64,000 nucleotides of DNA from a virus: IMG/VR virus record IMGVR_UViG_3300032296_003714, positions 43,330 through 107,329 of that record. One strand, given 5' to 3'. The notes under the pieces were generated by a model, which was given only the letters and a program-made list of their open reading frames with translations, was not told where the DNA came from and ran no database searches. Both the position numbers and the translations under genes were made by a program. Positions 20,141-64,000 of this stretch are shown here, piece after piece (position 1 is the stretch's first letter; each line of letters begins with the position of its first letter).

Positions 20141-20152
20141 TATTTTATTTAA

Positions 20153-45298: not shown

Positions 45299-45769
45299 AT
45301 GGCAGATGGTACTACATATGGTTTATTTTTTCCATTTCAAGACTCAAGAAGAGGAGATTACCTAGCGCTTACAGAATTTGAACAAGAAGAAGTAAGGTCA
45401 GATTTAATTCATTTGTTATTAACAAGAAAAGGAACAAGGTATTTTTTACCTGACTTTGGAACAAAACTTTACGATTACATATTTGAACCGTTTGACGGAT
45501 TGACATTCAATGCAATCGAATCTGATATCAGAGATTCTATTTCAAGGTATATGCCTAATTTAATAGTAAACAATATATCTATTGAACCAATAACACCTGA
45601 AGAAGAATTTGATGGTACTGTTACAGGTACAATTGGAAGTGTCAGAGTTTACGACATCTATAGAGTACCAGGAAAAAACACATACGAATATACTGCAAAA
45701 GTAAGAATTGATTATTCAATCAATGATTTGACTTTTTCGCAAAGTGATTTCGTTATTATAAATATTTAA
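45299..45769 (+). CDS. gp25: baseplate wedge protein gp25-like
   Basis: A 156-residue protein. The core shows LIHLLLTRKGTRYFLPDFGT, which matches the gp25/lysozyme-like W family where a conserved polar loop packs against the sheath ring. T4 gp25 has 132 residues. It connects the baseplate to the first sheath ring. It sits just before a gp6-like gene, as in T4-type phages, and begins the second baseplate block of the window. Confidence 0.85.
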   Translation: MADGTTYGLFFPFQDSRRGDYLALTEFEQEEVRSDLIHLLLTRKGTRYFLPDFGTKLYDYIFEPFDGLTFNAIESDIRDSISRYMPNLIVNNISIEPITPEEEFDGTVTGTIGSVRVYDIYRVPGKNTYEYTAKVRIDYSINDLTFSQSDFVIINI

Positions 45770-45775
45770 TACAAT

Positions 45776-47614
45776 ATGGCTAACAATAAAATATCATATA
45801 CAGTTAGGGATTACCAAGGAATTAGAGCGGAACTACTTAACTATGTCAAAACTTATTATCCCGAATTAATTCAAGACTTCAACGACGCTTCTGTTTTTTC
45901 TGTGTTTTTGGATTTAAATGCTGCTGTTGCCGATAACCTACATTACCATATTGATAGAAGTATTCAAGAAACAGTATTACAATATGCACAACAAAGGTCA
46001 TCAATATATAATATAGCTAGAACTTATGGATTAAAAATCCCTGGTCAAAGACCTTCAGTATCTTTGGTAGATTTTTCTATAACAGTTCCTGCATTTGGTG
46101 ACAAAGAAGATGAAAGATATTTGGGCACATTAATTAGAGGTTCACAAGTAAGCGGTGCGGGTATTGTTTTTGAAAACATATATGATATTGATTTTACTTC
46201 ACCATACAATGCTCAAGGGTTTCCAAATAGACTTAAGATACCAAATTTTAATACAAATGGGGTCTTACTAAATTATACAATAACTAAAAGAGAACTTGTT
46301 GTTAATGGTATAACAAAAGTATTCAAAAGAGTTATTTCACCAAATGATGTTAGACCATTTTTTGAATTGTTCTTACCTGAAAAAAATGTTTTAGGCATAA
46401 CAAGTGTATTGTTAAAGAATGGTACAGATTATACAAATATACCACCGGCATCTGAATTTGTTGGTTTAGCTAACAGGTGGTATGAAGTTGACGCGCTTGC
46501 CGAAGATAGGGTTTTTATTGAAGACCCAACAAAAGTTGCAGACCAACCAGGAATTAAGGTTGGTAGATATATTCAAACTAGTGACAGATTCATTTCTGAA
46601 TATACTCCTGAAGGTTTTAAAAAAATGACTTTTGGTGGAGGAACAACATCTGCTCAAGACCAGCTTAATTTATTTACTAACTTAGGAGGTCCTTTGAATA
46701 TACAAAATTATTTAAATAATTTTTCATTAGGTTCTGCTTTAGTTCCAAACTCTACATTGTTTGTTCAGTATAGAGTTGGAGGTGGATTAGCAACTAATTT
46801 AGGTACTAATGTAATTAATCAAGTCGGTACTGTTTCATTTTTTGTTAATGGTCCTTCAGAAGTTACAAATCAATCAGTTATAAATTCATTAAGATGTAAT
46901 AACGTAACTGCAGCAATAGGTGGTGCAAACCAACCAAATATAGAGGAGGTTAGAAACTTTGTTTCTTTTAATTTCTCAGCACAAAAAAGAGCTGTTACTG
47001 TTAATGATTATGAGGCGATTATTAGAAATATGCCTTCACAATTTGGAGCACCTGCTAAAGTTGCAATCACAGAAAACGATAATAAGGTTAAAGTACAAAT
47101 ATTATCATATGATACCCAAGGTAAATTAACAAGTGTTGTTTCCAATACTTTAAAACAAAACCTTGCAACATATCTTTCAAACTATAGAATGTTAAATGAT
47201 TATATCTCAATATTAACTGCTGAGGTTATTGATTTAAGTGTTGAAGTTTCTATTGTACTTACTTCAGCACAAAATTCAGGTCAGATTATTACAGATGTTG
47301 TAAGTAGAATCTCAAATTATTTTAATCCGCAATTTAGAGAACTAGGACAAAATGTTAATATCTCCGAGTTGAGAAGTATTATACAAAATCAGACAGGTGT
47401 TTTGAATGTCACATCTATAGATATTTTCAATTTGGTCGGAGGGCAATACTCATCAGCACAAACATCTATGTTATATGCCGACGAAGAAACAAGAAAAATA
47501 CAACCTGTAGATGATACTTTATTTGCAGAACCAAATCAAATTTACCAAGTAAGATTTCCAACAAAAGACATTAAAGTTAGTGTAAAGAACTATCAAACAA
47601 CTACATTATCTTAA
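45776..47614 (+). CDS. gp6: baseplate wedge protein gp6/J-like
   Basis: A 612-residue protein. The N-terminal SYTVRDYQGIRAELLNYVKT and DASVFSVFLDLNAAVADNLHYHIDRS are gp6/Baseplate_J hallmarks, followed by YGLKIPGQRPSVSLV. A later segment KRAVTVNDYEAIIRNMPSQF matches the C-terminal J-type domain. T4 gp6 is 660 residues. It forms the iris-like ring of the baseplate that triggers sheath contraction. It is 6 nt from gp25 and probably co-translated. Confidence 0.88.
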   Translation: MANNKISYTVRDYQGIRAELLNYVKTYYPELIQDFNDASVFSVFLDLNAAVADNLHYHIDRSIQETVLQYAQQRSSIYNIARTYGLKIPGQRPSVSLVDFSITVPAFGDKEDERYLGTLIRGSQVSGAGIVFENIYDIDFTSPYNAQGFPNRLKIPNFNTNGVLLNYTITKRELVVNGITKVFKRVISPNDVRPFFELFLPEKNVLGITSVLLKNGTDYTNIPPASEFVGLANRWYEVDALAEDRVFIEDPTKVADQPGIKVGRYIQTSDRFISEYTPEGFKKMTFGGGTTSAQDQLNLFTNLGGPLNIQNYLNNFSLGSALVPNSTLFVQYRVGGGLATNLGTNVINQVGTVSFFVNGPSEVTNQSVINSLRCNNVTAAIGGANQPNIEEVRNFVSFNFSAQKRAVTVNDYEAIIRNMPSQFGAPAKVAITENDNKVKVQILSYDTQGKLTSVVSNTLKQNLATYLSNYRMLNDYISILTAEVIDLSVEVSIVLTSAQNSGQIITDVVSRISNYFNPQFRELGQNVNISELRSIIQNQTGVLNVTSIDIFNLVGGQYSSAQTSMLYADEETRKIQPVDDTLFAEPNQIYQVRFPTKDIKVSVKNYQTTTLS

Positions 47615-47695: not shown

Positions 47696-50600
47696 ATGGG
47701 TCAAAGCCTGAGAATTAGAAGTAAGCTTGGAATTAATCAAACATTAAACGTACCTCTTGACCAAGAATATGAATTTTTGGAGATTTTATCTTTAAAAATT
47801 CTACAGGCAGACATATATACTCGTTCATGTGCAGAATATGGCGTTATTGTTGGTAGGGTAACTGCAAACAATGGATTTGGAGTACCTAACGCAAAAGTTT
47901 CAGTTTTTATACCAATTCAGAATGAAGATTTAGATAATCCATTAATTACAAGTGTATATCCGTATACGGTACCTACAGATAAGAATGAGGACGGATATAG
48001 ATATAACTTGTTACCATATGAGAAATCATATTCTAAACATGCGGCGACAGGAACTTTCCCAACAAGATTAGATGCGTTAACAGATTCAACGGTAATAGAA
48101 CTTGTTGACAAGTATTATAAATTTACTGTCAAAACAAATGATAGTGGTGACTATATGATAATGGGAGTACCTACAGGGTTTCAAACTCTTGTTATGGATG
48201 TAGACCTTTCAGATATAGGTGAGTTCTCACTTACACCACAAGATTTGATAAGGATGGGTTTAGCTACAGAATCACAAGTTGCGGGTAATAAATTCAAAAG
48301 CTCACAAGATTTAGAATCACTTCCTCAAATTATCAGTATAACAAAAACTGTTGAAGTATCTCCATTGTGGGGAGAGCCAGATATATGTCAAATTGCTATC
48401 AACAGAGTTGATTTTGATTTAAGAGACGATGCGAATGTTGATATACAACCAACAGCTGTTTTCATTGGGTCAATGTTTTCAACTGCAGAAAATTTAAGAC
48501 TTAGAAAAAATTGCAAACCAAGAGATAATATGGGAAACCTTTGTAACTTAGTTGCAGGACCTGGACAAATTCTAGCGATAAGACAGACAATTAATCAAGA
48601 TAGTGAGGGTAATCCAATATTAGAGCAATATGAATTAGAACAATCGGGTAATGTAATTGATGAAGATGGTACATGGTTAGTAGAATTACCTATGAATTTG
48701 GATTACATTATAACAAATGAGTTCGGTGAAAGAGTTATATCACCTGACTCTAGCGTTGGTATACCATCAAAAGGAAATTATAGATTTAAGATAAAGTGGC
48801 AACAACCTAAAGATTTAACACAACAAACAAGGAGAGCATATTTTCTTGTTCCGAATGTTAGGGAATTCGGATGGACTTCAAACTCAGACCCTAATTATCT
48901 ACCAACAACTTCATTACAGGGAAAACAGTTGGCTAGTTCATATTATTTTGGATTAGATTGGAGTGGTTATACTGATGGACTAACAACCATATCAGATAAA
49001 AATGCTAAGATAGATGAGATAGTTAAATGTGAAGACACATTTTATTCTTTTGGTTTTAATAAAGTGTATACGGTTTCGGGATTAATTGATGAATATAAAA
49101 ATGGTTTAACTAGAGGGAGATTTATAGGGATAAAAGAAATTGATGATAATGATTGCTCGTCCACAGTAAATAAATTTCCTGTAAACGACGGAGTGAGAAA
49201 TTTCGATTCAATATTTTTTGTTGTGTCTATTTTATTACAAATAATTCAATTAATCGGAGTTCCAATATTAATTGTTCTTCACTTTGTTGCTTGGATATGG
49301 AATAACATATTGGTACCATACAAACTATTATTTACGCTTCTAATGTCATTTCAAGTTGGATGGTATTTATTTGGTTTTTTTTCTAAGTTTATCAGGGCAA
49401 AGGCAATGGCTATTGCGTCAATACTTAATCCTGCTCTTACCGCCGAAGCTGCTGGTTTAGAAACTGCCGCTTGGCAAGACTTGGCAAATTCTGGAAAATG
49501 GGCATTAACTCTTGGACTATTTGAATCTGCAATGAGGGCTACGAAAAAGAGAAACTTTCCACCAATTAAATTAACTAGTATAACCTATCCTAATTGTCAA
49601 ACTTGTCAATGTTCTGGATTTGATTCAAACTCTGAGTTTGGATTAAACGCTGGAGGAGGTACTTTAACAAATTTTGATAATAATGCTGATTATTTGGATA
49701 ATATATCAACAAAAACCGTAATTAGTACATATAATTCTGATGATATCGAAATAGCGACAATTGCGTTTTCTCAAGCAGTTGGGACAAGAACTGACGGTAT
49801 TACTGACAGAACAGTGTATAAAACAATGGAATCACAAGAATTTGTTTATGGAAGTAATACAAATAAGTTTTTTAATTACTCTTTAGATTTACCTTTTGCA
49901 GAAAGAATTAATGTATTTAACCTAAGAAAAAAATATTTTGACGGAGTTAATAAAATAAGTGTAACATTTAATTCGCCTGATAATTCTGTAAATCACTTTG
50001 ATAATACAATAACAATAATATCTAAAACTCCTTTTGAAACAGGAACATTATTTACTTTTGTTGACCCGGCAACAACACAAGATGTTAATTATAGAAATTT
50101 GGGTATAAGTGGAATAACTTTAAACGCCGGACCATCCACATACAATGTTGAATATGCAATTTCTCAAACAACAAATGGCACGGTTTCTTATATCCTTAAT
50201 ACCGGTTCAACGGTTTCTAATTATAAATTTCCATCTGATGTGGAATATTATCAGGTTTTAACTGCAATGACAATATCTGATGCATCCAAAATATGGGAAA
50301 ATACCAATGAATCTTTATTACCTGGATTACTTAATTCCTCAACGGTTGTTAGATATAACGAAAGAACTGATTTTTTATCAGGTTGGGGGTCTGTCAAACA
50401 ATATCCTTCATATAAAATAAGAGAATTATTTGCAGATTTTGATAATCAATATATTTTGATATTACAAAGAGGGGTTGACCCATACTCACCAACTTATACA
50501 AACAAATATGGTATTGGAAAACTTTTAGGATTTCCTACCGAAGATTCTGTTATTATAACAGGAAATACAAGATTGAATATCCCAATTCAAAAATTGACAA

Positions 50601-52537
50601 ATACAAGTGCTTCAGTCCAACTATTTAATAATCAAAATAATATTTTTTACCCTTCTCACTTTTTTAGGGCTGGAGATGATTTTTCTGCTTTTACAACTAA
50701 CAGAGTAGGTTATTATGGTGGATTAGATGCGACAAACACAGTTATTACATATTCTTTTTCTTTAAACACACCAACAATAAATTCAGTAAGAACCACAGTT
50801 TCCTCTTCTAGTAATGGGGCTTTTGATGTTTTTAGTAATCAAGCAAGATATGATTTATCTGAAGATTTATCTGGAGGTGGTTATTATTATGTAAATGCTG
50901 GTAATAAGCCAAGCAACACAACAATATTCTACTACACATCTACATTACTACCAAGTTTAACGGCTAACCCAATGAATATTTCTTCAAAAGTTAATAATGT
51001 TCTAAGAACAGATAGATTACCATCATCAGATTATTTGGATGGTAGCTCATGGAATTATAATCCAAGTTTATTACAACAAAATATAGGTTTCACATTTTAT
51101 GAAATTAATACCGAAAGTGATACCATTACAGTTCAGGGGTACGGTAGCGGTGCTGATATTGTTCCACCTGATATTAGTGGATTAACCGCTAGTCAAAATG
51201 TATTTAATACTTTCGAATGTGAAAATATGGTTAGCCTAAGTTGTTATAGCGGTAATAGTACAAGTTTTGGTGTAAAGAAAGGTTGTTCTGATGAAGATTC
51301 AGTAGAAAACGGATGTTATGTTTTAATGAAAAAACCTCTTACCGATTTGTTTAATGGTAAAGATTTGAAGACTTGGAGTGAATGGGGTTATAGATTCAGG
51401 TTTTTTTATGGGTTATGTAGAGGAGTACTCTCACAAACTTTTGTGAATAACTGGGTTAACGGAACATTATATGCTTATCCAATACAGGTAGATACATACT
51501 ATAATAAACAAAACAAACCAACAACACCTATCTTCTGTAAAGACACCATATATTTTGACAGTAAGACAAATAATTTTTATTACAGAAGTAGTCCATATAA
51601 TAATACATCAGACAAGTTTATAGGAAAAAGTGTCTCAACACAAGCGAGACCTATAAATCAACGATTGTTACAATACCCAACCACAATAATGAATTTAGGA
51701 TGGAAAGATTCTTTTTATTCTGAAATAAGTTTTGACCCAAGCACAAGGGGTTATGTGGTTAATCAACTGAACCCAACAAGTTATTCAGATACATCTGATT
51801 TGGTGAATTTGTTTGTTATCTCAAGAATAACTGATGAAAACTTTATACAGAGATTAACATCAGGATTTAATCCTGATAATTCATTGAATCAATTATTTTC
51901 AAGACCCGAAAGAAGAATTGATGGTGATTTAGCTCAATTAATGTCAATAAATTCAGAAGAAGGTGTTATAAAATTCTCACCCGAATATTATTCTTTGACT
52001 GGGTCTCAGTATGAGCCAGTTATTATTGATAACCCTATTTCAGGGAATCCAACAATCGGAGTTTTCTTTTCTTCAACTACAGAAAATTTACAATTCAAAG
52101 ATTTCTTGTCACCAGGTAGAATTGATTTCAGAGCAACACCAACAGAGAATTTTAAACCATTTAGCTATGGTATCAAATCACAAGAAGTACCTTACTATAA
52201 ATGGGGATTAGAAAGTTCTCAAACAATATTTGGTACCGAACGTAATAACTGGGTAACAAGCCAGGCTCAAATTGGACAATCAAGATATCAGTCTTTGGAC
52301 CGAACAACCGCAACATATTATCAAGGAGATGGAATTGTTAACGACCAAAATAAAAGAGGTTATATTTTTAAAGTAAGTAATGATTCAACTTTGGTTGCTG
52401 GAACACAATATGATAAAGTTAGAGCAAATGAAAATAGTGTATTCTTAGTTGGCGCACCATTTCATTTTTATTTCGGACTAACACAAGGCGCAACCGCACT
52501 AAATAAATTTAAAACAAAGTATGCTTTAGATGAGTAA
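47696..52537 (+). CDS. giant virion-type protein with transmembrane hairpin and Cys cluster, 1613 residues
   Basis: Residues about 40-150 look like a carboxypeptidase-regulatory-type beta sandwich (YGVIVGRVTANNGFGVPNAK, then TNDSGDYMIMGVPTG). Residues about 503-565 form a long hydrophobic hairpin: IFFVVSILLQIIQLIGVPIL, VLHFVAWIWNN, LLFTLLMSFQVGWYLFGFF. A Cys cluster CQTCQC is at 634-639 (C634, C637, C639). Beta-rich adhesin-like domains follow to the C-terminus. In gene order it stands where T4 puts gp7/gp8-type wedge genes, but I see no similarity. The hydrophobic hairpin could insert in a host membrane. Function is inferred only from position. Confidence 0.55.
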   Translation: MGQSLRIRSKLGINQTLNVPLDQEYEFLEILSLKILQADIYTRSCAEYGVIVGRVTANNGFGVPNAKVSVFIPIQNEDLDNPLITSVYPYTVPTDKNEDGYRYNLLPYEKSYSKHAATGTFPTRLDALTDSTVIELVDKYYKFTVKTNDSGDYMIMGVPTGFQTLVMDVDLSDIGEFSLTPQDLIRMGLATESQVAGNKFKSSQDLESLPQIISITKTVEVSPLWGEPDICQIAINRVDFDLRDDANVDIQPTAVFIGSMFSTAENLRLRKNCKPRDNMGNLCNLVAGPGQILAIRQTINQDSEGNPILEQYELEQSGNVIDEDGTWLVELPMNLDYIITNEFGERVISPDSSVGIPSKGNYRFKIKWQQPKDLTQQTRRAYFLVPNVREFGWTSNSDPNYLPTTSLQGKQLASSYYFGLDWSGYTDGLTTISDKNAKIDEIVKCEDTFYSFGFNKVYTVSGLIDEYKNGLTRGRFIGIKEIDDNDCSSTVNKFPVNDGVRNFDSIFFVVSILLQIIQLIGVPILIVLHFVAWIWNNILVPYKLLFTLLMSFQVGWYLFGFFSKFIRAKAMAIASILNPALTAEAAGLETAAWQDLANSGKWALTLGLFESAMRATKKRNFPPIKLTSITYPNCQTCQCSGFDSNSEFGLNAGGGTLTNFDNNADYLDNISTKTVISTYNSDDIEIATIAFSQAVGTRTDGITDRTVYKTMESQEFVYGSNTNKFFNYSLDLPFAERINVFNLRKKYFDGVNKISVTFNSPDNSVNHFDNTITIISKTPFETGTLFTFVDPATTQDVNYRNLGISGITLNAGPSTYNVEYAISQTTNGTVSYILNTGSTVSNYKFPSDVEYYQVLTAMTISDASKIWENTNESLLPGLLNSSTVVRYNERTDFLSGWGSVKQYPSYKIRELFADFDNQYILILQRGVDPYSPTYTNKYGIGKLLGFPTEDSVIITGNTRLNIPIQKLTNTSASVQLFNNQNNIFYPSHFFRAGDDFSAFTTNRVGYYGGLDATNTVITYSFSLNTPTINSVRTTVSSSSNGAFDVFSNQARYDLSEDLSGGGYYYVNAGNKPSNTTIFYYTSTLLPSLTANPMNISSKVNNVLRTDRLPSSDYLDGSSWNYNPSLLQQNIGFTFYEINTESDTITVQGYGSGADIVPPDISGLTASQNVFNTFECENMVSLSCYSGNSTSFGVKKGCSDEDSVENGCYVLMKKPLTDLFNGKDLKTWSEWGYRFRFFYGLCRGVLSQTFVNNWVNGTLYAYPIQVDTYYNKQNKPTTPIFCKDTIYFDSKTNNFYYRSSPYNNTSDKFIGKSVSTQARPINQRLLQYPTTIMNLGWKDSFYSEISFDPSTRGYVVNQLNPTSYSDTSDLVNLFVISRITDENFIQRLTSGFNPDNSLNQLFSRPERRIDGDLAQLMSINSEEGVIKFSPEYYSLTGSQYEPVIIDNPISGNPTIGVFFSSTTENLQFKDFLSPGRIDFRATPTENFKPFSYGIKSQEVPYYKWGLESSQTIFGTERNNWVTSQAQIGQSRYQSLDRTTATYYQGDGIVNDQNKRGYIFKVSNDSTLVAGTQYDKVRANENSVFLVGAPFHFYFGLTQGATALNKFKTKYALDE

Positions 52538-54248
52538 CTTATATTCAATCATACCAAGCGTACAACAATATAAGTCGGCACCTGCTGATGACCAGCAGTT
52601 GTCTGTTGTTTTGGAAGAACAAAGTCAAAATCTTGTTGAGTATGATAGAAGTACGACCGTTAGCCTTGCCCAAGTTTATGATGACGAAAGACAAGAATCT
52701 ACAGTATTCAGACCAACATTTAAAGTAAGTTATTTGTACTCAAATGTTTTTACGGGAACAACAAATTATTTACCATTCCAATATAATTTATTTTATGTCG
52801 ACCCTGAGGGTTCGTTATTTAATAATACATGGAAAGGTTATCCGCAATATTATGAATTTGATTTTTTTAGAAACGATGTTGATGATGGGCATATTAATTA
52901 TTACGCGAAAAGTGCTTACACATATAATTGGACATACAACATAACATATGCATATGATAATGATTACAAAAAACAAATGTTTGCAGTGTTAAACAACAAT
53001 TCATTTAACTGGATTGCTGAAGATGGTATACCTTTTATAATTAAAAAAAGTACTGAAAACGGCAGCGGTATCATATCATTTGAATGTATTTGTCCACATG
53101 GTTTAACTGTCGGAGAATCTGTTGAATTATTAATCAATGGAGTTGTTTACAATTATAGACAACAAAGCTTATTTGAAGTGTATTCGTTAGGCAACGGATT
53201 ATTTGATAGTGATTTATATATCTTTAATATATATGATATAGGATTTACCGGAACAACTCTAAATGATAATGTAAAAGGTACCTTCAAAAGAGTTACCAAT
53301 TCCGATAATCCATTAGAAACAAAGTCAAAGTATTATGTTAGAAGGCACAAAGTACTTCAAGATGTTAATAATATAATAGTAACAAAGGCGGGTTTTGAAA
53401 AATTGCCATTTGGGGAAGAAAGAAAATTAGAATTAAGTTCTATAACACCAAATCAAGTAACTAGGATTTCTCAAAAAACAAGTTCTAATGTTTATACATT
53501 TACTCCTAAGAGAGATATTGATTTAGGTAAACTTATCGATAATCAAAAAAGACCTGTAACTGAATTATTTTTAACTATTATAAATCGAGGATATTCAGGG
53601 TATTTCAATAAACCAACTAATGGAGTTGGATTAAAACAAGGATGGTTATTCAATATAACTAATTTTAATAATTCTTGGTGGAGTGATAATAACACTGTTT
53701 CCAACTCAAACATAGGTGTGAGCTCTTATACACAAACTAATGGTGCAACAAAGACATTTTATTACAACCAATCTTTAAAAATTGGAGATATAATAGATGG
53801 TGATTTTTGTGAATGGAATGATTATGCACAAGTTGAAAGAGTTGTTTCACCATATTATCATAAGATAAGATACAATCAGGATGTGTTTCAAACGGTGTCT
53901 TCACCAAGTTCAAATACTGCCGGTTATTACTATAACCCCCACACATCAATTACAGTACAAGTTTTTTCTGATTATATTGAAACTGCAGATACGGACCAAG
54001 TAGATAACATACCAACATATGCTTATTACTCAAACACTGACCAACAATTTAGGTGGAGAGATTTATATACATATGGGTTCTTTGACCAAGAAGGTAGAGG
54101 AGTGGATTATCCATTCTTCAACAAAACACACTATCCATATAAAAATACGATATTTAGATTAACTCCTGATGATAAAGGATTTAACATAAACGATACAATT
54201 AAAGGAACCGATGTTCCAGTGAAACCACTTGTAGATGGATGTGAATAA
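52530..54248 (+). CDS. unknown virion protein, 572 residues
   Basis: A beta-rich, Tyr/Asn-rich chain. It overlaps the giant gene by 8 nt and the next gene by 14 nt, so it is part of one translational unit. Distinct segments are YNLFYVDPEGSLFNNTWKGY, VQVFSDYIETADTDQVDN and an Asn/Thr-rich middle (NNSWWSDNNTVSNSNIGVSS). No signal peptide or catalytic motif is visible. By place and composition it may be a baseplate side arm or a fibre part. Confidence 0.5.
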   Translation: MSNLYSIIPSVQQYKSAPADDQQLSVVLEEQSQNLVEYDRSTTVSLAQVYDDERQESTVFRPTFKVSYLYSNVFTGTTNYLPFQYNLFYVDPEGSLFNNTWKGYPQYYEFDFFRNDVDDGHINYYAKSAYTYNWTYNITYAYDNDYKKQMFAVLNNNSFNWIAEDGIPFIIKKSTENGSGIISFECICPHGLTVGESVELLINGVVYNYRQQSLFEVYSLGNGLFDSDLYIFNIYDIGFTGTTLNDNVKGTFKRVTNSDNPLETKSKYYVRRHKVLQDVNNIIVTKAGFEKLPFGEERKLELSSITPNQVTRISQKTSSNVYTFTPKRDIDLGKLIDNQKRPVTELFLTIINRGYSGYFNKPTNGVGLKQGWLFNITNFNNSWWSDNNTVSNSNIGVSSYTQTNGATKTFYYNQSLKIGDIIDGDFCEWNDYAQVERVVSPYYHKIRYNQDVFQTVSSPSSNTAGYYYNPHTSITVQVFSDYIETADTDQVDNIPTYAYYSNTDQQFRWRDLYTYGFFDQEGRGVDYPFFNKTHYPYKNTIFRLTPDDKGFNINDTIKGTDVPVKPLVDGCE

Positions 54249-55032
54249 ATTTGTATTAAGACAAGGGTTCTTTACTGATAAAGAACTGACAATTCCTATT
54301 GAGGCTAAATGGGACTATGAGGGTATTGATGACGCTATTGACCAATACGAAGAAAATGCTATTGCTGAAGTTTTAGGTAAGGGTTATGACTTTGAGGTAG
54401 ATAGATTCCCACATGCTCAACACAGTGGTAGTAGTAGAACAGATATAAATTATGAGTTTTATTTTTTCTCAGGAGGAAGTCTATCAGCATCCTCTGAATG
54501 GAGAAATTCTTATATAAGTGAATCATTCACGGTCCAAGATGTTTTTTATTATTCAAACAGTTTTACCAAATCCTTTTTCAAACTTGATTTCTACGACACT
54601 GTGGATGAGAAAAATCAGAAGAATTATTTTACGGTAATAATACCAACACAACAGGGTGAGTTTATGGATATTAACATGGCGAGAACCCCTGTTAAAATAA
54701 GGAAACCAAAATTCAAGTTAGATTATATTGGAGATAAAGAAGGTTTCTTTATTTATTGGTTAAAGAGTTTGGAGTTTATTCCCTTGAATACTTTTTATAT
54801 GACTGCCAAGTTTTATAATGCAAAAACAGGGGCTTTTACAAAGATGTTAAATAAACCACAATCAACAATAAACAACAACAATAAATTCATATTCGATAAT
54901 ATAAATTATTTTTATTATAGAGTGGTGTTAGATTATGTGAATGTTCAATATACAGTCTATGACTTACAGGGTAATAGAGTGGGTACAACAAGTACCATAA
55001 AATGGTATGAATATGTTAATCCACCGCAATAA
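54235..55032 (+). CDS. unknown virion protein, 265 residues
   Basis: Beta-rich chain with clusters of aromatic residues (FFIYWLKSLEFIPLNTFYMTA, then YYRVVLDYVNVQYTVYDLQG). It begins within the 3' end of the previous gene and ends by sharing the final base of its stop with the next ATG (TAATG). This tight coupling suggests a fixed ratio of the products. No family was recognised. Confidence 0.5.
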   Translation: MDVNKFVLRQGFFTDKELTIPIEAKWDYEGIDDAIDQYEENAIAEVLGKGYDFEVDRFPHAQHSGSSRTDINYEFYFFSGGSLSASSEWRNSYISESFTVQDVFYYSNSFTKSFFKLDFYDTVDEKNQKNYFTVIIPTQQGEFMDINMARTPVKIRKPKFKLDYIGDKEGFFIYWLKSLEFIPLNTFYMTAKFYNAKTGAFTKMLNKPQSTINNNNKFIFDNINYFYYRVVLDYVNVQYTVYDLQGNRVGTTSTIKWYEYVNPPQ

Positions 55033-56111
55033 TGAGCGACATATATAAAATAAGAATATCGCCAGAAACCATAGTGGGTGATTTGTCCTATGTTACTTAT
55101 AGTGGACAAACCTTTGGGGTTTATTCTGCAATGACACAAGTTGTTAGTGCTGGACCTAATGGTAGTTCTACACTTACAGGATTAACAATCCCTATACTAT
55201 TAAATCAGACATCATATGACGCGGGTTATTATAGTCCATTTGATGGTGCAATATACCAAAAGGATGTCGTAACTAATTTTTTAGTTTCGGCTAATACAGT
55301 AAATCCGTACACATTTAACTTATATAATACATCAGAACAGTATCAGAAATTTATTGAGTTATCATCATACAGTGTTGATTGGGGTGATGGAACAAAACAG
55401 TTAGTTACTGCTTTCACACCTAACTATATATCACACACTTACCCAACCGCAAATCAAGAATATACCATAACATTATCACAGATTAATCCTTGGGGTAAAG
55501 TGATAGTACAAAAACCAATACGAACTCCATTTAAAACACCTGTAATATATAATCCAAAGGGTAGAGTATTTTTCCAATCTAATGTTGGTAGTTGGTCGGC
55601 AACTCCTGTTAGTTATGATTATATATTCTCAGGAGACCAGTATAATCAAGTTTCGTCACAAATATCATCAAACTTTGTGACAGTACCTTATATGGTTTCA
55701 GGTGAAACTAAATCAAGAATAACTGAGCTGTTTCAGTACGGACCTGTCCCATATAAGATAGGGGTTCCTGTTATTAAAAACCAACAAATTTTTGGAGTGG
55801 TAAATTCTATGACTCCAATATTCACAGCATATACAATACAAAACATAGACTATTACGATTATAAGGGAGGTCTGACAATATTTTTTATTGAATCTTCAGG
55901 GTTCACACAAGAAAATCTTACAGCGGTTCCGATTACAAAAGATGAACTTCTTTTAAAAATAACTGACCAAGGACAGATACAAACGGATGTTTTTGTGGAA
56001 AGAGGAAAGAATAGTGCGTTTGAAAGAATACAAAGATTGGGTGAGGTAGATAACCTTGGAGATTTAATTAATTACGGATACGGATTTTTTAATGTTGAAA
56101 AAAAGACATAA
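55032..56111 (+). CDS. virion protein with PKD-like domain
   Basis: A 359-residue protein. Residues about 110-160 read YSVDWGDGTKQLVTAF and ISHTYPTANQEYTITL, which is the typical PKD/immunoglobulin-like repeat (WGDG...HTY). PKD domains bind surface glycans or act as spacers. The rest is beta-rich with SGETKSRITEL. It likely belongs to the tail-tip or fibre assembly. Its stop is followed by a TATTTATA box for the next gene. Confidence 0.6.
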   Translation: MSDIYKIRISPETIVGDLSYVTYSGQTFGVYSAMTQVVSAGPNGSSTLTGLTIPILLNQTSYDAGYYSPFDGAIYQKDVVTNFLVSANTVNPYTFNLYNTSEQYQKFIELSSYSVDWGDGTKQLVTAFTPNYISHTYPTANQEYTITLSQINPWGKVIVQKPIRTPFKTPVIYNPKGRVFFQSNVGSWSATPVSYDYIFSGDQYNQVSSQISSNFVTVPYMVSGETKSRITELFQYGPVPYKIGVPVIKNQQIFGVVNSMTPIFTAYTIQNIDYYDYKGGLTIFFIESSGFTQENLTAVPITKDELLLKITDQGQIQTDVFVERGKNSAFERIQRLGEVDNLGDLINYGYGFFNVEKKT

Positions 56112-56113
56112 AC

Positions 56114-56121
56114 TATTTATA
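56114..56121 (+). promoter_or_regulatory. TATTTATA motif
   Basis: An exact copy 2 nt after the stop of the PKD-like gene and 15 nt before the ATG at 56137. Confidence 0.5.
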
Positions 56122-56136
56122 GAAATAATATAAATT

Positions 56137-57045
56137 ATGGCAATTGGAACATACGGTACGGTAAGACCAAGTGATGTATCTCCCGAAGATGTGGAGATAA
56201 TCCTAAACTATACCCCATCGAGAGATGTGACTACAGAATTTGTACTTAAAAAGTTAAGTGCGACAACATTATTGAGACCATACTTTAACAATGATTCGAC
56301 AGGTGGAAACTCCGGTGTTGAGGTTTTGGGTGGCCTTTATAATTTAACATTACCTGCGGAAGAGTTTAATGCTTTGGGGTTTTATACATTATACCTAAGA
56401 CCGGCACAGATAAGAACAAGTATCACAGATTGTGGTGTTTTAAGTGCATTGCCTAATGTGAAAGGTATTGTTATTGATTTAGCGAATGTACCAACTAACG
56501 CAATAAATAAATTTGTACCACAAGGTTTAGTTGGATATAGAATAGAATATCTAAATCCTGATGGTTCTAAGATACCAAACTTTTTTAGAATTGTGACATC
56601 TTGTTTCTATTGTGAACCTGTGTTAACAAATCAAACAAATACAAATCAAAAGTCTATCAGATATAGATATGTTGACGGACAATCAAACTTATTGTTTTTG
56701 ACTGTATCACCTTCATCATCACCAACGAACAAACCAAACGCAACTCCTTTCATTGGACAACCTGACCAAGATATTATTATAACAAACACATTCTTCAATC
56801 CAGTTACTATCGATATTGAAATGGTTGAATACGACATATCATCACTTGCAATTGCATTGTATGGTAATCAAACTAAGTCTATTGATGATGGTATCTATAC
56901 AATTTACGATTCTAATAATAACATCTACAGACAATACAACTTATACGAAATAAGAAATCAGTTTAATGAACTTCTGTATGAAGTTAGACAGAACAGAGGA
57001 AATGACATTGATTTCAGTAAAAACTTTAACACTATAATAACCTAA
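56137..57045 (+). CDS. unknown virion protein, 302 residues
   Basis: Starts MAIGTYGTVRPSDVSPEDVE, and has LVGYRIEYLNPDGSKIPNFF and a C-terminal SIDDGIYTIYDSNNNIYRQY segment followed by a helical tail. A CFYC pair might bind a metal. The stop overlaps the next ATG by one base (TAATG), and the next gene is a gpI-like tail protein. Likely a partner in the same assembly. No family was recognised. Confidence 0.5.
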   Translation: MAIGTYGTVRPSDVSPEDVEIILNYTPSRDVTTEFVLKKLSATTLLRPYFNNDSTGGNSGVEVLGGLYNLTLPAEEFNALGFYTLYLRPAQIRTSITDCGVLSALPNVKGIVIDLANVPTNAINKFVPQGLVGYRIEYLNPDGSKIPNFFRIVTSCFYCEPVLTNQTNTNQKSIRYRYVDGQSNLLFLTVSPSSSPTNKPNATPFIGQPDQDIIITNTFFNPVTIDIEMVEYDISSLAIALYGNQTKSIDDGIYTIYDSNNNIYRQYNLYEIRNQFNELLYEVRQNRGNDIDFSKNFNTIIT

Positions 57046-60020
57046 TGGCGAAGACCAGAAGTAAATATTTTTATCCCCCAAGACCAGGTAATGGTGCGGG
57101 AACATTCTCCGATGAAATTGTTGGATTACAAACAGTAACGGGGGGTGGACTTACGCAAGGTAATTTTGAATTCACGACAAATGTTGTTGAAAAGGTTAAT
57201 CGTACATTTAATGTGGGTGCTTTTTCGAGCCCAATTAGTTTGGAGGACCTTAATGTTGATAGTTTATTACAAGGAAACGCAATACTTGAAACACAATTTA
57301 GAGTATACCCAAATTATGATGTTTCACAAGTTTTGAACTTTTCGATGTATGGTTCTTTAGTGAAGAGATTTAGTGTTTCGGTTACAAAAATCATCAATTA
57401 TTTTCCAGCTGCGTTAGATGTTCTAAGTACTCAGTTAAATTTAACCACAGGGGCTACGGCAGTAAATATTGCGTTTGATTCAGTTGCAAATGAAACTTAT
57501 TTTGAGGTTAATGTTGATAGATTACACAATCCTTTCGACATTGATTATACGGTTAGTGCAACAACTAATTTAAATGTAAGAGAATTAGAGGTTTCCAAAT
57601 ATAGGAATTTATATAATACATATTTGGATTATGCTGTTACGGTAAATGGTATCGATTATAAAGTAGAATCTTTTTCACCTTCACAATCGTTTAATACAGG
57701 TACTATTGCTTTCTATGTCTCAGGTTCACCTTTTGGTGTTACCGCAACAACTTGGTATGATGATTTCATTATTAAACCAAATGACTACATAACTGACAAA
57801 GTTTTTGAAGAAGATTTTGATGAAGTTGAAAAATTCTTAATTAATAGATTAGTAAACCCAATATATACAGCAATATTCCAAGTCCCACAACAAAATGATG
57901 ACGGGCAATTCTATATTGATAACAGACAAATTACATGGCCAAAAGATGGTATGTGGAATTTGGATATAAGGTCAATTGAGTTTGATTCTTATTTAACGCA
58001 ACTGCAATCTATTGCTGAAAATTTAGATGAGTTCAAAACAAACTTGGTATCAAGATTTTTGGTTTCAGGTTCGTTGAAAGATTTTGATACATTAGGTCAG
58101 AAAGTAGAAAAGATATTTCAAATATATGGTAGAAGCTTCGACCAAATAAAACAATTTATTGATGCTCTTGCATATATTAATTCAGTACACTACAATCCAG
58201 GAAATGATATACCCTCACAGTTATTATTTAACTTAAGTCAAACTTTAGGTTGGAGTACTAACTTCTCACCAATAACACAAGAAAATTTTTTAGAGAGTGT
58301 TTTCGGTAATCAAGCGGTTAACGAGTACCCTGGGTATTCTAGGTCGTTAACACCAACCGAACTCAACTATGCATACTATAGAAATCTCATTATAAACTCC
58401 GCATATCTTTTCAAATCAAAAGGAACTAGAAGGTCTATTGAATTTTTATTAAGATTGATAGGTGCTCCCGAATCATTAATTGAATTCAATGAGCATATCT
58501 ATTTGGCTGACCAAAAGATTAACATGGAGAGTTTCGATACTCAATATGCTCAAATATCTGGTGGTACATATAACCAAGAGTTACCGGCTTTATTGGCGGG
58601 GGACACATACAAAATTAAAGGACAGACATTTACAGCATTCACAACAACAGATATTTTCCAACCTGTAGTTGTTACAAGGGGAGAATATCCTGTGGATGAT
58701 GAGGGATATCCTAAAGCTCCTGATGAAACAGAAGAAATGTTTTTTCAAAAGGGTGCTGGTTGGTATGAATGTACCCCACAACATAGAAGTCCCGATGAAG
58801 TACAAATTACAGGTTTAGTATATACAGGTCAAAATTATAATATCCAAACTCAACTTGAACCATTCACTTACGGAGAAAAGTATTTGGATGTTTACAGACA
58901 ATTCCCGTACATGAGGGAAGGTTTCAAAATAAGAAGAATTGTTGATAATAATAAGTCGTGGTTGGAGACAGATGATAAAATCAGAATCTCGAACCAAGCT
59001 GATTATAATGCATACTATTTTGTTGAAAATGAAAAATTGGTTATCAATGTAAAAAACATTGACCTTAATTTAAATCCTGGACAAGGGTTGGCGTATGATG
59101 TTTGGGATGAGTCTGTTAAGTATGATTATCCAATACCTGAGTCAGGTCTGACTATTAATTTTCCAGTTCCTGGTGGTGTAGATTCTACATTCGTTAATCC
59201 ACAACCAAAAAAGAAAACATTTTTTGAGTTCCTCCAAACATTTTGGTTGAACATGGTTAATACAAGAAATAGACAATTCATTACAGACGGTAAGACAGGT
59301 GGTTATCCGAACCTACAATCTATTTTTTGGAAATATATTGAATCGGAACAAACTGTCGGTATTCCAAATAACAAGTATACGTATCAGAAACTTATAGATT
59401 ATGTTGAGGGTATGGGTCCTTATTGGATGAAGTTGATTGACCAAATGATACCTGCAACAACAATATGGACAACAGGAATCAAATATGAAAATTCAATTTT
59501 ACATAAACAAAAATTTGTATATAGGAGACAAAGAGGGTGTCAATTTGTACCTGTCGTTGTTCCTCCATGTTCAATAATAACAAACATATTTGATTATACA
59601 TGTAGTACCGAATATGTAGACTTTTTCATTTATCCGTGGCTTAATGGTGATGTTGATGTATCTAATTTTAGTACTATTTTAAACAATAGACTCAATTATT
59701 ATTTACAACAACAGGGGCTTACAATCTCTGACTGTCTACTAAATTCTTTGAAAACCACATGGTATGTTGATTTGAGATTAGATGGTAACATCTTAATACA
59801 AGTTCCATTCTATACTGGTTATGGACAAACTGATGTACCAACAAATACTCAGTGGAAAAACGCATTGATTAATAGTTTACCACAGCTTACACAATATAGT
59901 TTGGGTTATTTTTTAAATGGTACAATGTTAACAATATCTAATTTAACTATGACACCTATGAATTTGGGAGAACTACTTTCTCTGAATGTTGGTATAAACA
60001 TTGAAATAAATTGCGTTTAA
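57045..60020 (+). CDS. large tail protein with gpI-like module
   Basis: A 991-residue protein. Residues about 325-500 carry a helical unit typical of tail protein I (P2 gpI-type): LQSIAENLDEFKTNLVSRFL, FDQIKQFIDALAYINSVHY, then AYLFKSKGTRRSIEFLLRLIG with the conserved KS-K-G-T-(R/K)-x-S/A-I-E pattern. The N-terminus is beta-rich. The C-terminal 200 residues carry CSIITNIFDYTCS and helical/beta mix. In known tails this type connects the baseplate rim to fibres. Here it lies right before the SprB-like fibre gene. Confidence 0.65.
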   Translation: MAKTRSKYFYPPRPGNGAGTFSDEIVGLQTVTGGGLTQGNFEFTTNVVEKVNRTFNVGAFSSPISLEDLNVDSLLQGNAILETQFRVYPNYDVSQVLNFSMYGSLVKRFSVSVTKIINYFPAALDVLSTQLNLTTGATAVNIAFDSVANETYFEVNVDRLHNPFDIDYTVSATTNLNVRELEVSKYRNLYNTYLDYAVTVNGIDYKVESFSPSQSFNTGTIAFYVSGSPFGVTATTWYDDFIIKPNDYITDKVFEEDFDEVEKFLINRLVNPIYTAIFQVPQQNDDGQFYIDNRQITWPKDGMWNLDIRSIEFDSYLTQLQSIAENLDEFKTNLVSRFLVSGSLKDFDTLGQKVEKIFQIYGRSFDQIKQFIDALAYINSVHYNPGNDIPSQLLFNLSQTLGWSTNFSPITQENFLESVFGNQAVNEYPGYSRSLTPTELNYAYYRNLIINSAYLFKSKGTRRSIEFLLRLIGAPESLIEFNEHIYLADQKINMESFDTQYAQISGGTYNQELPALLAGDTYKIKGQTFTAFTTTDIFQPVVVTRGEYPVDDEGYPKAPDETEEMFFQKGAGWYECTPQHRSPDEVQITGLVYTGQNYNIQTQLEPFTYGEKYLDVYRQFPYMREGFKIRRIVDNNKSWLETDDKIRISNQADYNAYYFVENEKLVINVKNIDLNLNPGQGLAYDVWDESVKYDYPIPESGLTINFPVPGGVDSTFVNPQPKKKTFFEFLQTFWLNMVNTRNRQFITDGKTGGYPNLQSIFWKYIESEQTVGIPNNKYTYQKLIDYVEGMGPYWMKLIDQMIPATTIWTTGIKYENSILHKQKFVYRRQRGCQFVPVVVPPCSIITNIFDYTCSTEYVDFFIYPWLNGDVDVSNFSTILNNRLNYYLQQQGLTISDCLLNSLKTTWYVDLRLDGNILIQVPFYTGYGQTDVPTNTQWKNALINSLPQLTQYSLGYFLNGTMLTISNLTMTPMNLGELLSLNVGINIEINCV

Positions 60021-62152
60021 TGGCACAGTTTGATTATACCATATTAGTAACTGGAGATTGTCAGAGTAATTCTACAGGCTCCATAAGTATATTACCGTTT
60101 GGTGGAACACCACCATACACAGTTCAATGGGTGGACCCCAACTTAGGTGTTGATATAATAACAACACAACCTACGATTAGAACAGGTCTTTCAAATGGTG
60201 TATATGCTGTAAGATTAAATGATTCTACTCTCCCTACAAATCTTGAGTTTTATGTTAACATACCTGTTTCAAACGGGGTTTGCGTTTTTATTGACGATTC
60301 AGCGGGTACTACTTGCGGTTTAAATAACGGCTCAATAACAGGAAGTTCATCTACAGATTATTCATCGGCATCTTTTTATTTGTATAGTGGTAATGGGCAG
60401 TTTATAACATCCGCAGTTACAAATACAAATAATGTTGTTTTTGGTAGTTTAACTGCAGGAACATACAATGTTGGTGTTTTAGATTTAGGTGGATGTTCAG
60501 GATTGAGTGAAACTATAGTTATCGAGGATTCTTCAGAATTTGATTTTGGTTTTTATGTTGTTCCTAATTCTAGTTGCGGTGGGAATGCTATTGGTAAAAT
60601 ATATGTGACAGGAGAAACAGGACCATCACCGTATACGTATCTATGGAATAATTTAGAGACAACAAGTAGTATAACGGGATTAACTGAAGGAAGTTATTCA
60701 GTTACAGTGACAAATGCCGATGGATGCTCAATTACAAAGAATACTACAGTATCTACAGTAGACCCCGTAGGGTTTGGTAATTTTGTTGTTACCCAACCAA
60801 CATGTTTTTCAAATGATGGGGTTTTAGTCATGACAATTACAGGAGGAACGGCACCTTTCTATTATTCTGCATCAACAGGTGATTTTGAAATATCTTACGC
60901 TAGAACATATACAGTAACAGGACTGACTGCGGGGCAAATAAGTGTTAAGGTGACTGATTCTGGATTCTGTACATTCACAGAAACTACTCAGTTATTAACA
61001 CCGAATGGGATTAGTTCAATATCAATAACTGGAACAAATTCTACCTGTTCTCAGACAAATGGTGCGATATTAGTTTCATTACAAGGAGGAACTACCCCCT
61101 ATACTTATACATTGGTATATCCTACAGGTAATACTAATGTAATTGCAACATCAAATACAACACAAGAATTCATAAATCTAACTGCTGGTACATATACTGT
61201 TTTTGTTGAAGACAGTTCTGGATGTTCATATAATGATGACATTACAATAATAACTGAAAATAAGTTTACAATATCAACACAAATAACAGGGTCTACATGT
61301 GGATTAAATAATGCAACTGTCCAAGTTATTAAAACAACTGGTGGAACATCTCCATATGATTATAAGTTGGATACTACAAGTCAAATTATAGATACCACTC
61401 AGTCTGCAGTGACATTTACAAATGTCAGTCAGGGATTTCATACTGTCTCTGTTGTCGATGCTGATGGGTGTACACAGAATTTAAATTTTTATGTAAATTA
61501 TTCTGAACCAATCTCATATAGTTTATATTCAACTTCTTGCGGTTCAGGTAATGAAGGTAGTATTACTGCATTTATATCATCAGGAACTCCTCCATTCACA
61601 TTCAATTGGTCAAGTAATGTACCTGGTAATCCACAATCAATAACTGCTACAGGGTTAACTGCGGGTACCTATAGCTTAACGGTTGTTGATAGTACAGGTT
61701 GTTCATTGAAAAGAACAACAGAGATTATCTGTAGTCAAAGTTTTATTTCGTATCAGTTATATGTAATGGGAGATGAAGAATTTCAATTAAAATCTGGTAC
61801 TAAGTGTGGTCTCTTACAAATGCTCAATGAGGGTTTTGTGGATTTAACATCTAGTAATACTGGATGTACATTGGATTCTGCGGTATTTGTTGCTAAAGTA
61901 AGTGTAGACCCAACAGGTACGACTTATACAAGTACTTTCTTCACTGCGACAACATTGAACCAAGCACCTTCAGATAATTTGTGGTACAATACAATAAAAA
62001 CACTTTTATTATCAGTACCTGGAATACAAAAAGTTACTATAGATGCTTTAAATAATCAAATAACTATACAAACAACTGTGGACGGACCACTAAACAATCA
62101 AATCATAACCGTTGATGTCTTAATAGAGTATGACATTACATGTAAACAATGA
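60020..62152 (+). CDS. SprB-repeat tail-tip / fibre protein
   Basis: Start is at the TAATG overlap (60020) and gives a 710-residue protein; an earlier TTG is less likely. About seven repeats of 70-90 residues each share the plan S-x-C-G/x-x-N-G-x-I, then TPPYTVQW or TPPFTFNW, then LTAGTYxLTVVDSTGCS with a late Cys. That is the SprB repeat, best known from the gliding adhesin of Flavobacterium johnsoniae. The last 140 residues form a different domain (FISYQLYVMGDEEFQLKSGT) that may be the knob. A phage using the same fold may bind the same surface or mimic the adhesin. No RGD or catalytic motif is present. Confidence 0.75.
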   Translation: MAQFDYTILVTGDCQSNSTGSISILPFGGTPPYTVQWVDPNLGVDIITTQPTIRTGLSNGVYAVRLNDSTLPTNLEFYVNIPVSNGVCVFIDDSAGTTCGLNNGSITGSSSTDYSSASFYLYSGNGQFITSAVTNTNNVVFGSLTAGTYNVGVLDLGGCSGLSETIVIEDSSEFDFGFYVVPNSSCGGNAIGKIYVTGETGPSPYTYLWNNLETTSSITGLTEGSYSVTVTNADGCSITKNTTVSTVDPVGFGNFVVTQPTCFSNDGVLVMTITGGTAPFYYSASTGDFEISYARTYTVTGLTAGQISVKVTDSGFCTFTETTQLLTPNGISSISITGTNSTCSQTNGAILVSLQGGTTPYTYTLVYPTGNTNVIATSNTTQEFINLTAGTYTVFVEDSSGCSYNDDITIITENKFTISTQITGSTCGLNNATVQVIKTTGGTSPYDYKLDTTSQIIDTTQSAVTFTNVSQGFHTVSVVDADGCTQNLNFYVNYSEPISYSLYSTSCGSGNEGSITAFISSGTPPFTFNWSSNVPGNPQSITATGLTAGTYSLTVVDSTGCSLKRTTEIICSQSFISYQLYVMGDEEFQLKSGTKCGLLQMLNEGFVDLTSSNTGCTLDSAVFVAKVSVDPTGTTYTSTFFTATTLNQAPSDNLWYNTIKTLLLSVPGIQKVTIDALNNQITIQTTVDGPLNNQIITVDVLIEYDITCKQ

Positions 62153-62376
62153 CAAAGGTAGAAATATCTCAAATAACAGGAACAACTCCTATTGAAGTAT
62201 ATGTGTCAGATTATTATGACAACTATAGAACTTATTTGGGTATTATAAATTCATCATTACCACCGTCAGTATTCTTTGATTTACCGTCAACATTCAATGA
62301 TGTACCGATGGTTAAATTAATTCTTATCGATAGCAATGGATGTGAATATAACCATAATATTGAATGCACAATATGA
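62149..62376 (+). CDS. small fibre-associated protein, paralogue A
   Basis: A 75-residue protein that starts within the stop of the SprB-like gene (ATGA). It reads TGTTPIEVYVSDYYDNYRTY and ends near LILIDSNGCEYNHNIECTI. The next gene repeats this plan. It may fit the SprB-like fibre as a cap or a chaperone. Confidence 0.55.
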   Translation: MTKVEISQITGTTPIEVYVSDYYDNYRTYLGIINSSLPPSVFFDLPSTFNDVPMVKLILIDSNGCEYNHNIECTI

Positions 62377-62684
62377 CACAGATTGTAATTACAAACGCCA
62401 CGGGACTAACACCAATAGATGTATTTGTTGCCGATTATAATGGAAATTATAGAACATATCTCGGTTCAATTACAGGAACAACAATAGTACCTGTACCACC
62501 ACAAGAAAGTTTTTTACCAGGACCATTTTTTGATACTATTTCAACAATCATGTTAATCCTTAGGGATAACAATGGGTGTGAGAAATTTAAGTTGATAAAT
62601 TGTGAGGCATGTGAAATACAAATAATTATAACAGAAAATAATATACCAATAGCATCTGAATGTGGAATTATTTTTATTGCTTAA
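62373..62684 (+). CDS. small fibre-associated protein, paralogue B
   Basis: I take the ATG at 62373, which overlaps the previous stop (ATGA), giving 103 residues; 62364 is also possible. It shares TGLTPIDVFVADYNGNYRTY and LILRDNNGCEKFKL with paralogue A, and carries a C-terminal extension (CEACEIQIIITENN). The pair looks like a recent duplication with added C-terminal domain. It may bind the tail fibre tip. Confidence 0.55.
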   Translation: MTQIVITNATGLTPIDVFVADYNGNYRTYLGSITGTTIVPVPPQESFLPGPFFDTISTIMLILRDNNGCEKFKLINCEACEIQIIITENNIPIASECGIIFIA

Positions 62685-62720: not shown

Positions 62721-64000
62721 ATGGCTACTTACGTTAAAATTTCCGAATTACCTTTAGTACCTTCAGGGTCACCTGATAGTTTACTCGTAATAGTAAATCC
62801 AGGAGGAGACTGCTCTGGAACAACAAATTCTATTTATTTTTCTTCAATAACCGCACAATTAAGTGGCACCACAGGTAGTAGTGGTAGTTCAGGTTCATCA
62901 GGAACCAGTGGGACTTCAGGAACAAGTGGTAGCTCTGGTTCTAGTGGTTCTTCAGGAACAAGTGGTAGCTCTGGTTCTAGTGGTACATCAGGTACTTCAG
63001 GAACAGGTGCAAGTATATCAATATATGACGAGGGTTCGTTAATAACAACAGGAGTAACATCTATTGATTTCGTAGGTTCTGGAGTTACGGTAACATCAAC
63101 AGGCTCGAGTATAACAGTTAACGTTACGGCGACAGGAAGCGGGTCTGGTTCTTCAGGAACAAGTGGTACAAATGGTTCATCTGGAAGTTCTGGTTCTAGT
63201 GGAACTTCAGGAACAGATGGTTCTTCAGGAACTAACGGTAGCTCTGGAACTTCAGGAACAGATGGTTCTTCAGGAACTAGCGGTAGCTCTGGTACATCAG
63301 GAACAGATGGTTCTTCAGGAACTAGCGGTAGCTCTGGTACATCAGGAACAGATGGTTCTTCAGGAACTAGTGGTACAGATGGTAGTTCTGGTTCTAGTGG
63401 AACTTCAGGTACAGATGGTTCGTCTGGAACTAGTGGTACAGATGGTTCGTCTGGAAGTTCTGGTTCTTCAGGAACTAGTGGTACAGATGGTAGTTCTGGT
63501 TCTAGTGGAACTTCAGGTACAGATGGTTCGTCTGGAAGTTCTGGTTCTTCAGGAACTAGTGGTGTTGATGGTGTTTCAGGAACAAGCGGCACATCAGGTA
63601 CTTCAGGAACTGGACAAAGTGTATCGATTTATGATGAAGGAGTTTTAGTTACATCAGGAGTCACCGCAATTGATTTTGTTGGTTCAGGGGTTACAATAAC
63701 TTCCACAGGGTCTAGTATAACTGTGAATGTTACAGCAACAGGAAGTGGTTCTGGTTCTTCAGGTACAAGTGGTTCTAGTGGAACTTCAGGAACTGATGGT
63801 TCTTCAGGAACTAGTGGTGTTGATGGTGTTTCAGGAACAAGTGGTACATCAGGAAGTTCTGGTTCTTCAGGAACTAGCGGTACGGATGGTAGTTCTGGTA
63901 CATCAGGTACGGATGGTAGTTCTGGTACATCAGGTTCTTCAGGAACTAGCGGTACGGATGGTAGTTCTGGTACATCAGGTTCTTCAGGAACTAGCGGTAC
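62721..64000 (+). CDS. Gly-X-Y repeat (collagen-like) fibre protein, 3' end outside the window
   Basis: ATG at 62721 opens a frame without a stop to the right edge (426 codons shown). The N-terminal 50 residues (MATYVKISELPLVP) are a non-repetitive cap. After this, Gly occurs at every third residue (for example GTSGTDGSSGTS), with Ser/Thr/Asp at the other positions and no Pro. Two copies of a 44-residue module interrupt the tracts. Low-proline collagen-like fibres are known from phages; here Ser/Thr may be glycan targets. The true length cannot be seen. Confidence 0.7.
   Translation, partial: MATYVKISELPLVPSGSPDSLLVIVNPGGDCSGTTNSIYFSSITAQLSGTTGSSGSSGSSGTSGTSGTSGSSGSSGSSGTSGSSGSSGTSGTSGTGASISIYDEGSLITTGVTSIDFVGSGVTVTSTGSSITVNVTATGSGSGSSGTSGTNGSSGSSGSSGTSGTDGSSGTNGSSGTSGTDGSSGTSGSSGTSGTDGSSGTSGSSGTSGTDGSSGTSGTDGSSGSSGTSGTDGSSGTSGTDGSSGSSGSSGTSGTDGSSGSSGTSGTDGSSGSSGSSGTSGVDGVSGTSGTSGTSGTGQSVSIYDEGVLVTSGVTAIDFVGSGVTITSTGSSITVNVTATGSGSGSSGTSGSSGTSGTDGSSGTSGVDGVSGTSGTSGSSGSSGTSGTDGSSGTSGTDGSSGTSGSSGTSGTDGSSGTSGSSGTSG
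62874..63002 (+). repeat. Gly-X-Y tract 1
   Basis: First tract of 43 codons, with Gly at every third position and Ser/Thr between; the codons themselves are variants of GGT/GGA-AGT/TCA. It sits between the N-terminal cap and the first 44-residue module. Confidence 0.7.
63009..63140 (+). repeat. 44-residue module, copy 1
   Basis: A beta-rich unit starting ASISIYDEGSLITTGVTSID and ending TVNVTATGS. It is 37 of 44 residues identical to copy 2 at 63615-63746. It interrupts the Gly-X-Y tract and may form a small globular trimer joint. Confidence 0.7.
63147..63608 (+). repeat. Gly-X-Y tract 2
   Basis: The longest tract, 154 codons, built from GTSGTDGSSG-like units. Longer DNA blocks within it are repeated near perfectly (63352-63450 against 63470-63560 are visibly alike), so replication slippage could change the fibre length. 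Confidence 0.65.
63615..63746 (+). repeat. 44-residue module, copy 2
   Basis: A unit beginning QSVSIYDEGVLVTSGVTAID and ending TVNVTATGS. It has the same length and, apart from seven positions, the same residues as copy 1. Confidence 0.7.
63747..64000 (+). repeat. Gly-X-Y tract 3 (continues beyond the window)
   Basis: Third tract of the same type, still open at the right edge. The last 120 nt repeat a GGTACGGATGGTAGTTCTGG-like block three times. Confidence 0.65.

Follow-up and report, generated by a model that had tools for sequence, protein, structure and literature searches.

The window, that is, the whole 64,000-nucleotide stretch of DNA analysed here, forms the end of a virus record of 107,329 bases, and it contains a gene for a protein with SprB-type repeats inside a conserved baseplate and fibre cluster of a contractile phage (Table 1). 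Two baseplate wedge genes open the cluster and are followed by seven more genes, from 47696 to 62152. Elsewhere, the record encodes a tape-measure-like protein, a DnaB-like helicase, a DNA polymerase and a ribonucleotide reductase. The SprB-type gene starts at an ATG that overlaps the stop codon of the upstream gene by 1 nt (TAATG); a longer alternative start, TTG, is present at 60011, but orthologues use the ATG. An original prediction, made from the sequence letters, had placed the protein at the tail tip, and the position of its gene is consistent with this, the genome encoding a contractile sheath and the cluster including gp25-like and gp6-like genes. The motif [AC]TATTTATA occurs 12 times in this DNA against 5.5 expected, a count reached in 0 of 100 shuffles. 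Its copies (at 20152, 20549, 22944, 47674, 56113, 62706 and other positions) mostly lie shortly upstream of the starts of structural genes, and the motif, which is the reverse complement of T4's TATAAATA, is a candidate late promoter.

The protein is divided into seven repeats of 78-91 aa each and a C-terminal part. Pairwise comparisons of the repeats score above shuffles (z 3.4-13) in every combination but that of repeats 1 and 2, which show no similarity against shuffles. The Pfam SprB family (PF13573) matches the whole protein with E 2.7e-19 and 69 bits, against a curated cut-off of 28, in six stretches, and has no further match elsewhere in the 107-kb record. The original prediction of about seven repeats of 70-90 residues is therefore borne out, with exact coordinates for the open reading frame, and the motifs that it named are present, GTPPYT in repeat 1 and GTPPFT together with LTAGTYSLTVVDSTGC in repeat 7. 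The paired cysteines that it described hold for repeats 2-7, but not for repeat 1. The separate domain at aa 573-710 was absent from it.

Table 1. Features of the baseplate and fibre region and of the SprB-type protein (coordinates are those of the window).
Feature	Coordinates	Strand	Description and basis
Contractile sheath	16901-20095
gp25-like and gp6-like baseplate wedge genes	45299..47614	+	First genes of the cluster
991-aa protein	57045..60020	+	Baseplate cluster, upstream; SprB-type gene is next in nearly all relatives
C-terminal domain of 991-aa protein	59577..60017	+	aa 845-991; looks like a paralogue of aa 573-710 in the SprB-type protein
SprB-type repeat protein	60020..62152	+	710 aa; seven Ig-like repeats and a C-terminal domain; open reading frame, Pfam SprB, orthologues, AlphaFold model
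Repeat 1	60023..60292	+	aa 2-91; cysteines C14 and C88 in place of the usual pair; segmentation, model, Cys count
Repeat 2	60293..60532	+	aa 92-171; C99/C159; segmentation, model
Repeat 3	60533..60772	+	aa 172-251; C186/C236; top score against host-repeat HMM (63 bits)
Repeat 4	60773..61012	+	aa 252-331; C262/C317; segmentation, model
Repeat 5	61013..61255	+	aa 332-412; C343/C402; segmentation, model
Repeat 6	61256..61501	+	aa 413-494; C427/C484; segmentation, model
Repeat 7	61502..61735	+	aa 495-572; C507/C561; highest conservation among the repeats
C-terminal domain of SprB-type protein	61736..62149	+	aa 573-710; putative docking domain; model, similarity to the upstream C-terminus
Two overlapping small paralogues	62149-62376 and 62364-62684	+	Mostly a single gene in relatives, where a PT-linker protein that bears a variable head is encoded next or fused to it
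GTSG/GSSG collagen-like open reading frame	62721..64000	+	Conserved downstream partner; runs off the contig

An AlphaFold2 model, run on 47 sequences, shows a string of seven beta-sandwiches that ends in an alpha/beta domain (mean pLDDT 83.7, with a pTM of 0.34, at which the spatial arrangement of the domains is not fixed by the model). Among solved structures, Foldseek ranks the grappling hook GhpA of Aureispira, a Bacteroidota adhesin, first (E 7.7e-20). GhpA of Aureispira sp. CCB-QB1 (PDB 9flp, 9fly, 9flw) is likewise a tandem beta-sandwich rod, but shares only 16-18% identity with the phage protein and is a far longer bacterial surface protein. In VIA-align, chains of fibronectin type III rank equal to or above GhpA, so that the resemblance is one of a common Ig/FnIII-like sandwich fold.

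The sequences of the repeats distinguish between Bacteroidota and other Ig-like types. When scored with an HMM made from 300 repeats of Bacteroidota, the repeats of the window reach 34-63 bits in six cases and 15.6 bits in the seventh (repeat 2), whereas the best Ig repeats of enterophage Wac and Hoc proteins reach 26-32 bits. A pair of cysteines frames the repeat of ~75-80 aa in 87% of 1542 host repeats and, for repeats 2-7, in 46-49 of 49 phages, but in none of eight enterophage Ig repeats. The SprB type claimed at the outset is upheld by this pair, by the HMM scores and by the match to GhpA. The Pfam label alone carries little information and is not specific to Bacteroidota adhesins, because domains of Slopekvirus Hoc proteins and of the Wac proteins of enterophages RB16 and KKP_3664 also exceed the Pfam cut-off. 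These Straboviridae proteins (RB16, KKP_3664, PSKm4DII) also carry tandem Ig-like domains, but they lack the Cys pair, are Ig_3/I-set-like, form a separate clade and are encoded in a neck or head context. SprB-repeat proteins secreted by the type IX system (T9SS) of Bacteroidota, such as one of Paenimyroides viscosum, resemble the phage protein in repeat length, Cys pair and motifs, with ~26-35% identity across the repeats; they differ in being longer, in starting with what resembles a signal peptide and in carrying T9SS sorting domains, of which the P. viscosum protein is an example.

An IMG/VR profile search found relatives encoded in 544 stretches, and the 80 top-scoring ones were retained. 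Across 97 related loci, the SprB-type protein is mostly 708-715 aa long, and a gene for a protein of ~991 aa abuts it in 94. Each of the 96 complete copies contains seven repeats, and the sole six-repeat copy is cut by the contig end. A search centred on the 991-aa gene gives the same picture: the next gene has seven repeats in 75 of 80 cases, the other five are cut by the contig end, and nearly every uncut next gene also has the C-terminal domain. In the repeat tree, repeats at the same position of different phages cluster together, with starred support for repeats 1-4 and 6 (repeat 6 without the most distant phage). Given the constant number of repeats and these position-wise clades, fixation of the array predates the divergence of most of these phages, and its age in the phage lineage is compatible with a single acquisition or birth. 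The free tree, of only 80 columns, mixes phage and host clades weakly. Several independent captures were considered and set aside, as holding all phage repeats together gives a tree of higher likelihood, with a p-AU of 0.66 by which neither one origin nor several is shown.

A scan of 84,980 genomes gave 374 matches, and the full phage architecture occurs in none of the best 80, among which identity to the phage protein is about 35% at most; recent transfer from a host was rejected on these grounds. The proposal that the phage gained the fold from a host adhesin is not supported as a recent event, in view of this low identity, the invariant seven repeats and the clades that the phage repeats form across phages, while the Bacteroidota type of the repeats stands. 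A 642-kb record named 'uncultured phage' (LR756502.1; 4474-9486 of locus L186) encodes a T9SS protein of host-like appearance, 1670 aa long, that contains SprB repeats. It was rejected as a phage orthologue for what are, by eye, a signal-peptide-like start and a CHU_C-like end, and may be either a captured gene or part of a mis-assembled contig.

The C-terminal domain has the predicted order alpha-beta-beta-alpha-beta-beta-beta, which follows a low-confidence stretch (aa 573-593). The same order is found in two independent models, at aa 598-707 of the SprB-type protein and at aa 875-987 of the 991-aa protein. Profiles of the two C-termini align with an hhalign score of 32.8 (P 1e-4, probability 58%, 17% identity); the highest score was 25.6 in 39 column shuffles and 18.5 with the cluster's other profiles. 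Model and profile together are suggestive of two paralogous domains, for which a shared docking function would be the simplest reading. The T7-type nozzle gp12 was rejected as the fold of this domain, the matches (Z about 5) lying within noise. Outside its C-terminal domain, the 991-aa protein is modelled poorly (mean pLDDT 44.7), but a region at ~aa 300-485 has matches in large proteins of Flavobacterium phage vB_FspM_immuto and Microcystis phage Mel-JY01; from this weak similarity and the position of the gene, we infer a role in the baseplate region.

These two phages are also the nearest cultured relatives, judged by the helicase, the sheath and the gp6-like protein, at about 25-37% identity (27-34% in the comparison with immuto). 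Few genes of the window have a Shine-Dalgarno motif (3 of 41), and the same is true of immuto (1 of 31), while such motifs precede 7 of 17 genes in Mel-JY01 and 11 of 19 in enterophages. The near-absence shared with immuto points to a Bacteroidota host, and the host of the window phage is probably a member of that phylum. In immuto, tail fibre and tail spike genes lie downstream of the baseplate genes; none of its proteins tested has SprB-type repeats.

The protein is probably a structural component of the tail, namely a baseplate-docked, disulfide-stiffened stalk of seven domains that holds or spaces adhesive parts. The repeats, the predicted fold, the fixed copy number, the gene linkage and the C-terminal similarity are direct results of computation, and the following arrangement is proposed for them. 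The seven SprB-type Ig-like domains would form a rod on the tail, in which each of domains 2-7 would acquire one disulfide once the virion leaves the reducing cytoplasm. The C-terminal domain would dock this rod on the baseplate or the fibre base, near the 991-aa protein, and the rod would set the distance from the baseplate at which adhesive parts are held. These parts may be the variable heads that belong to the PT-linker and collagen-like proteins encoded downstream or, in certain relatives, fusions to the ends of the rod itself. Such fusions, mostly behind (PT)n linkers, are C-terminal in five relatives, N-terminal in two and present at both ends in one; the C-terminal parts look beta-propeller-like by eye in two of the five. 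In relatives, the downstream order is the small gene, the PT-linker protein with its variable head and the GTSG collagen-like gene, whose length is very variable (up to about 2100 aa), whereas in the window the PT-linker gene is absent and the small gene doubled. Pfam has no match in the variable heads and PT-linker proteins tested.

The original prediction saw instead a receptor-binding protein, the repeats of which contact a glycan or protein of the host surface by descent from the host adhesin. Such a role is unlikely, even though SprB-type repeats belong to surface adhesins of the probable host phylum and extra heads occur on some orthologues. Divergence is even over the seven repeats, with no hypervariable site; mean pairwise identity is 59% in the repeats and 59% in the C-terminal domain, near the 61.5% of the C-terminus of the 991-aa protein, the main part of which is at 76% (a 302-aa gene and a 359-aa gene are at 86% and 66%), and the most variable genes are those downstream. 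Moreover, SprB repeats occur in many T9SS-secreted proteins, for example beside TANFOR toxins (PMC7073777). As generic T9SS modules that have weaker versions in enterophage Wac and Hoc proteins, they give no pointer to gliding, and a specific connection with the gliding machinery, with SprB itself or with its glycan finds no support for a protein with no T9SS features. Some part in host recognition is plausible for the protein but would be indirect; the variable adhesive heads are mostly encoded by neighbouring genes.

Very unlikely is a neck whisker or capsid decoration built of Ig-like domains in the manner of Wac or Hoc. The sole clear match in PHROG is phrog_3945, a Hoc-like head decoration family (E 4.2e-9), the nearest solved sequences are the neck whisker protein 9occ and phage decoration proteins, and the Wac and Hoc proteins above the Pfam SprB cut-off point the same way. 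However, the gene is placed after the baseplate cluster, the C-terminal domain is common to the adjacent 991-aa protein, and the Cys pairs are absent from Wac and Hoc proteins. In addition, Pfam finds neither Ig_3/I-set nor Fibritin_C in the SprB-type protein up to E 1, whereas such matches are present in RB16 and KKP_3664. That the gene is cargo, encoding a host-type surface protein made during infection and kept out of the virion, is hardly credible: homologous repeats are found chiefly in T9SS-secreted host proteins, but the phage protein has no signal peptide by simple hydropathy (10-residue maximum 1.12 against a host median of 2.68) and no T9SS C-terminal sorting domain in Pfam or NCBIfam (TIGR04183 and PF18962 were found in the P. 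viscosum protein, the positive control), and its gene is strictly linked to, and overlaps by 1 nt, a gene of the baseplate cluster.

Ig-like domains are common on phage tails, and the structural stalk favoured here files as an Ig-like tail protein, in this case of the Bacteroidota SprB type and with a fixed copy number; what is new is a variant, not a kind. Phage homologues are already auto-annotated as 'SprB repeat' in UniProt, among them A0A6J5LD72 of an uncultured Caudovirales phage (BFVD), a full-length match of 714 aa with 36% identity and E 1.5e-62, in which the term is a database name only. Among the openly available papers searched, none has SprB repeats in phages as its topic, and the TANFOR toxin paper (PMC7073777), the single one in which both terms occur, mentions phage only in the title of a reference.

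A Pfam 'SprB' label in a phage implies neither gliding nor T9SS. A wider and quite unlikely scenario is that an abundant clade of Bacteroidota phages carries a disulfide-locked tail stalk of fixed length, derived from an adhesin module of the host phylum. After a single acquisition, the number of domains would have stayed at exactly seven because it sets the length of the rod, and the heads on the rod's ends and on neighbouring proteins would be exchangeable; likeness to host fibres might then matter for contact with them or passage among them. A repeat of the Bacteroidota adhesin type is, in any case, a fixed part of the tail cluster, constant in number, in a large group of uncultured phages. 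The SprB-type gene is thereby a conserved marker for this group, and it offers a starting point for understanding how bacteria that possess a T9SS may be contacted by these phages at their surface.
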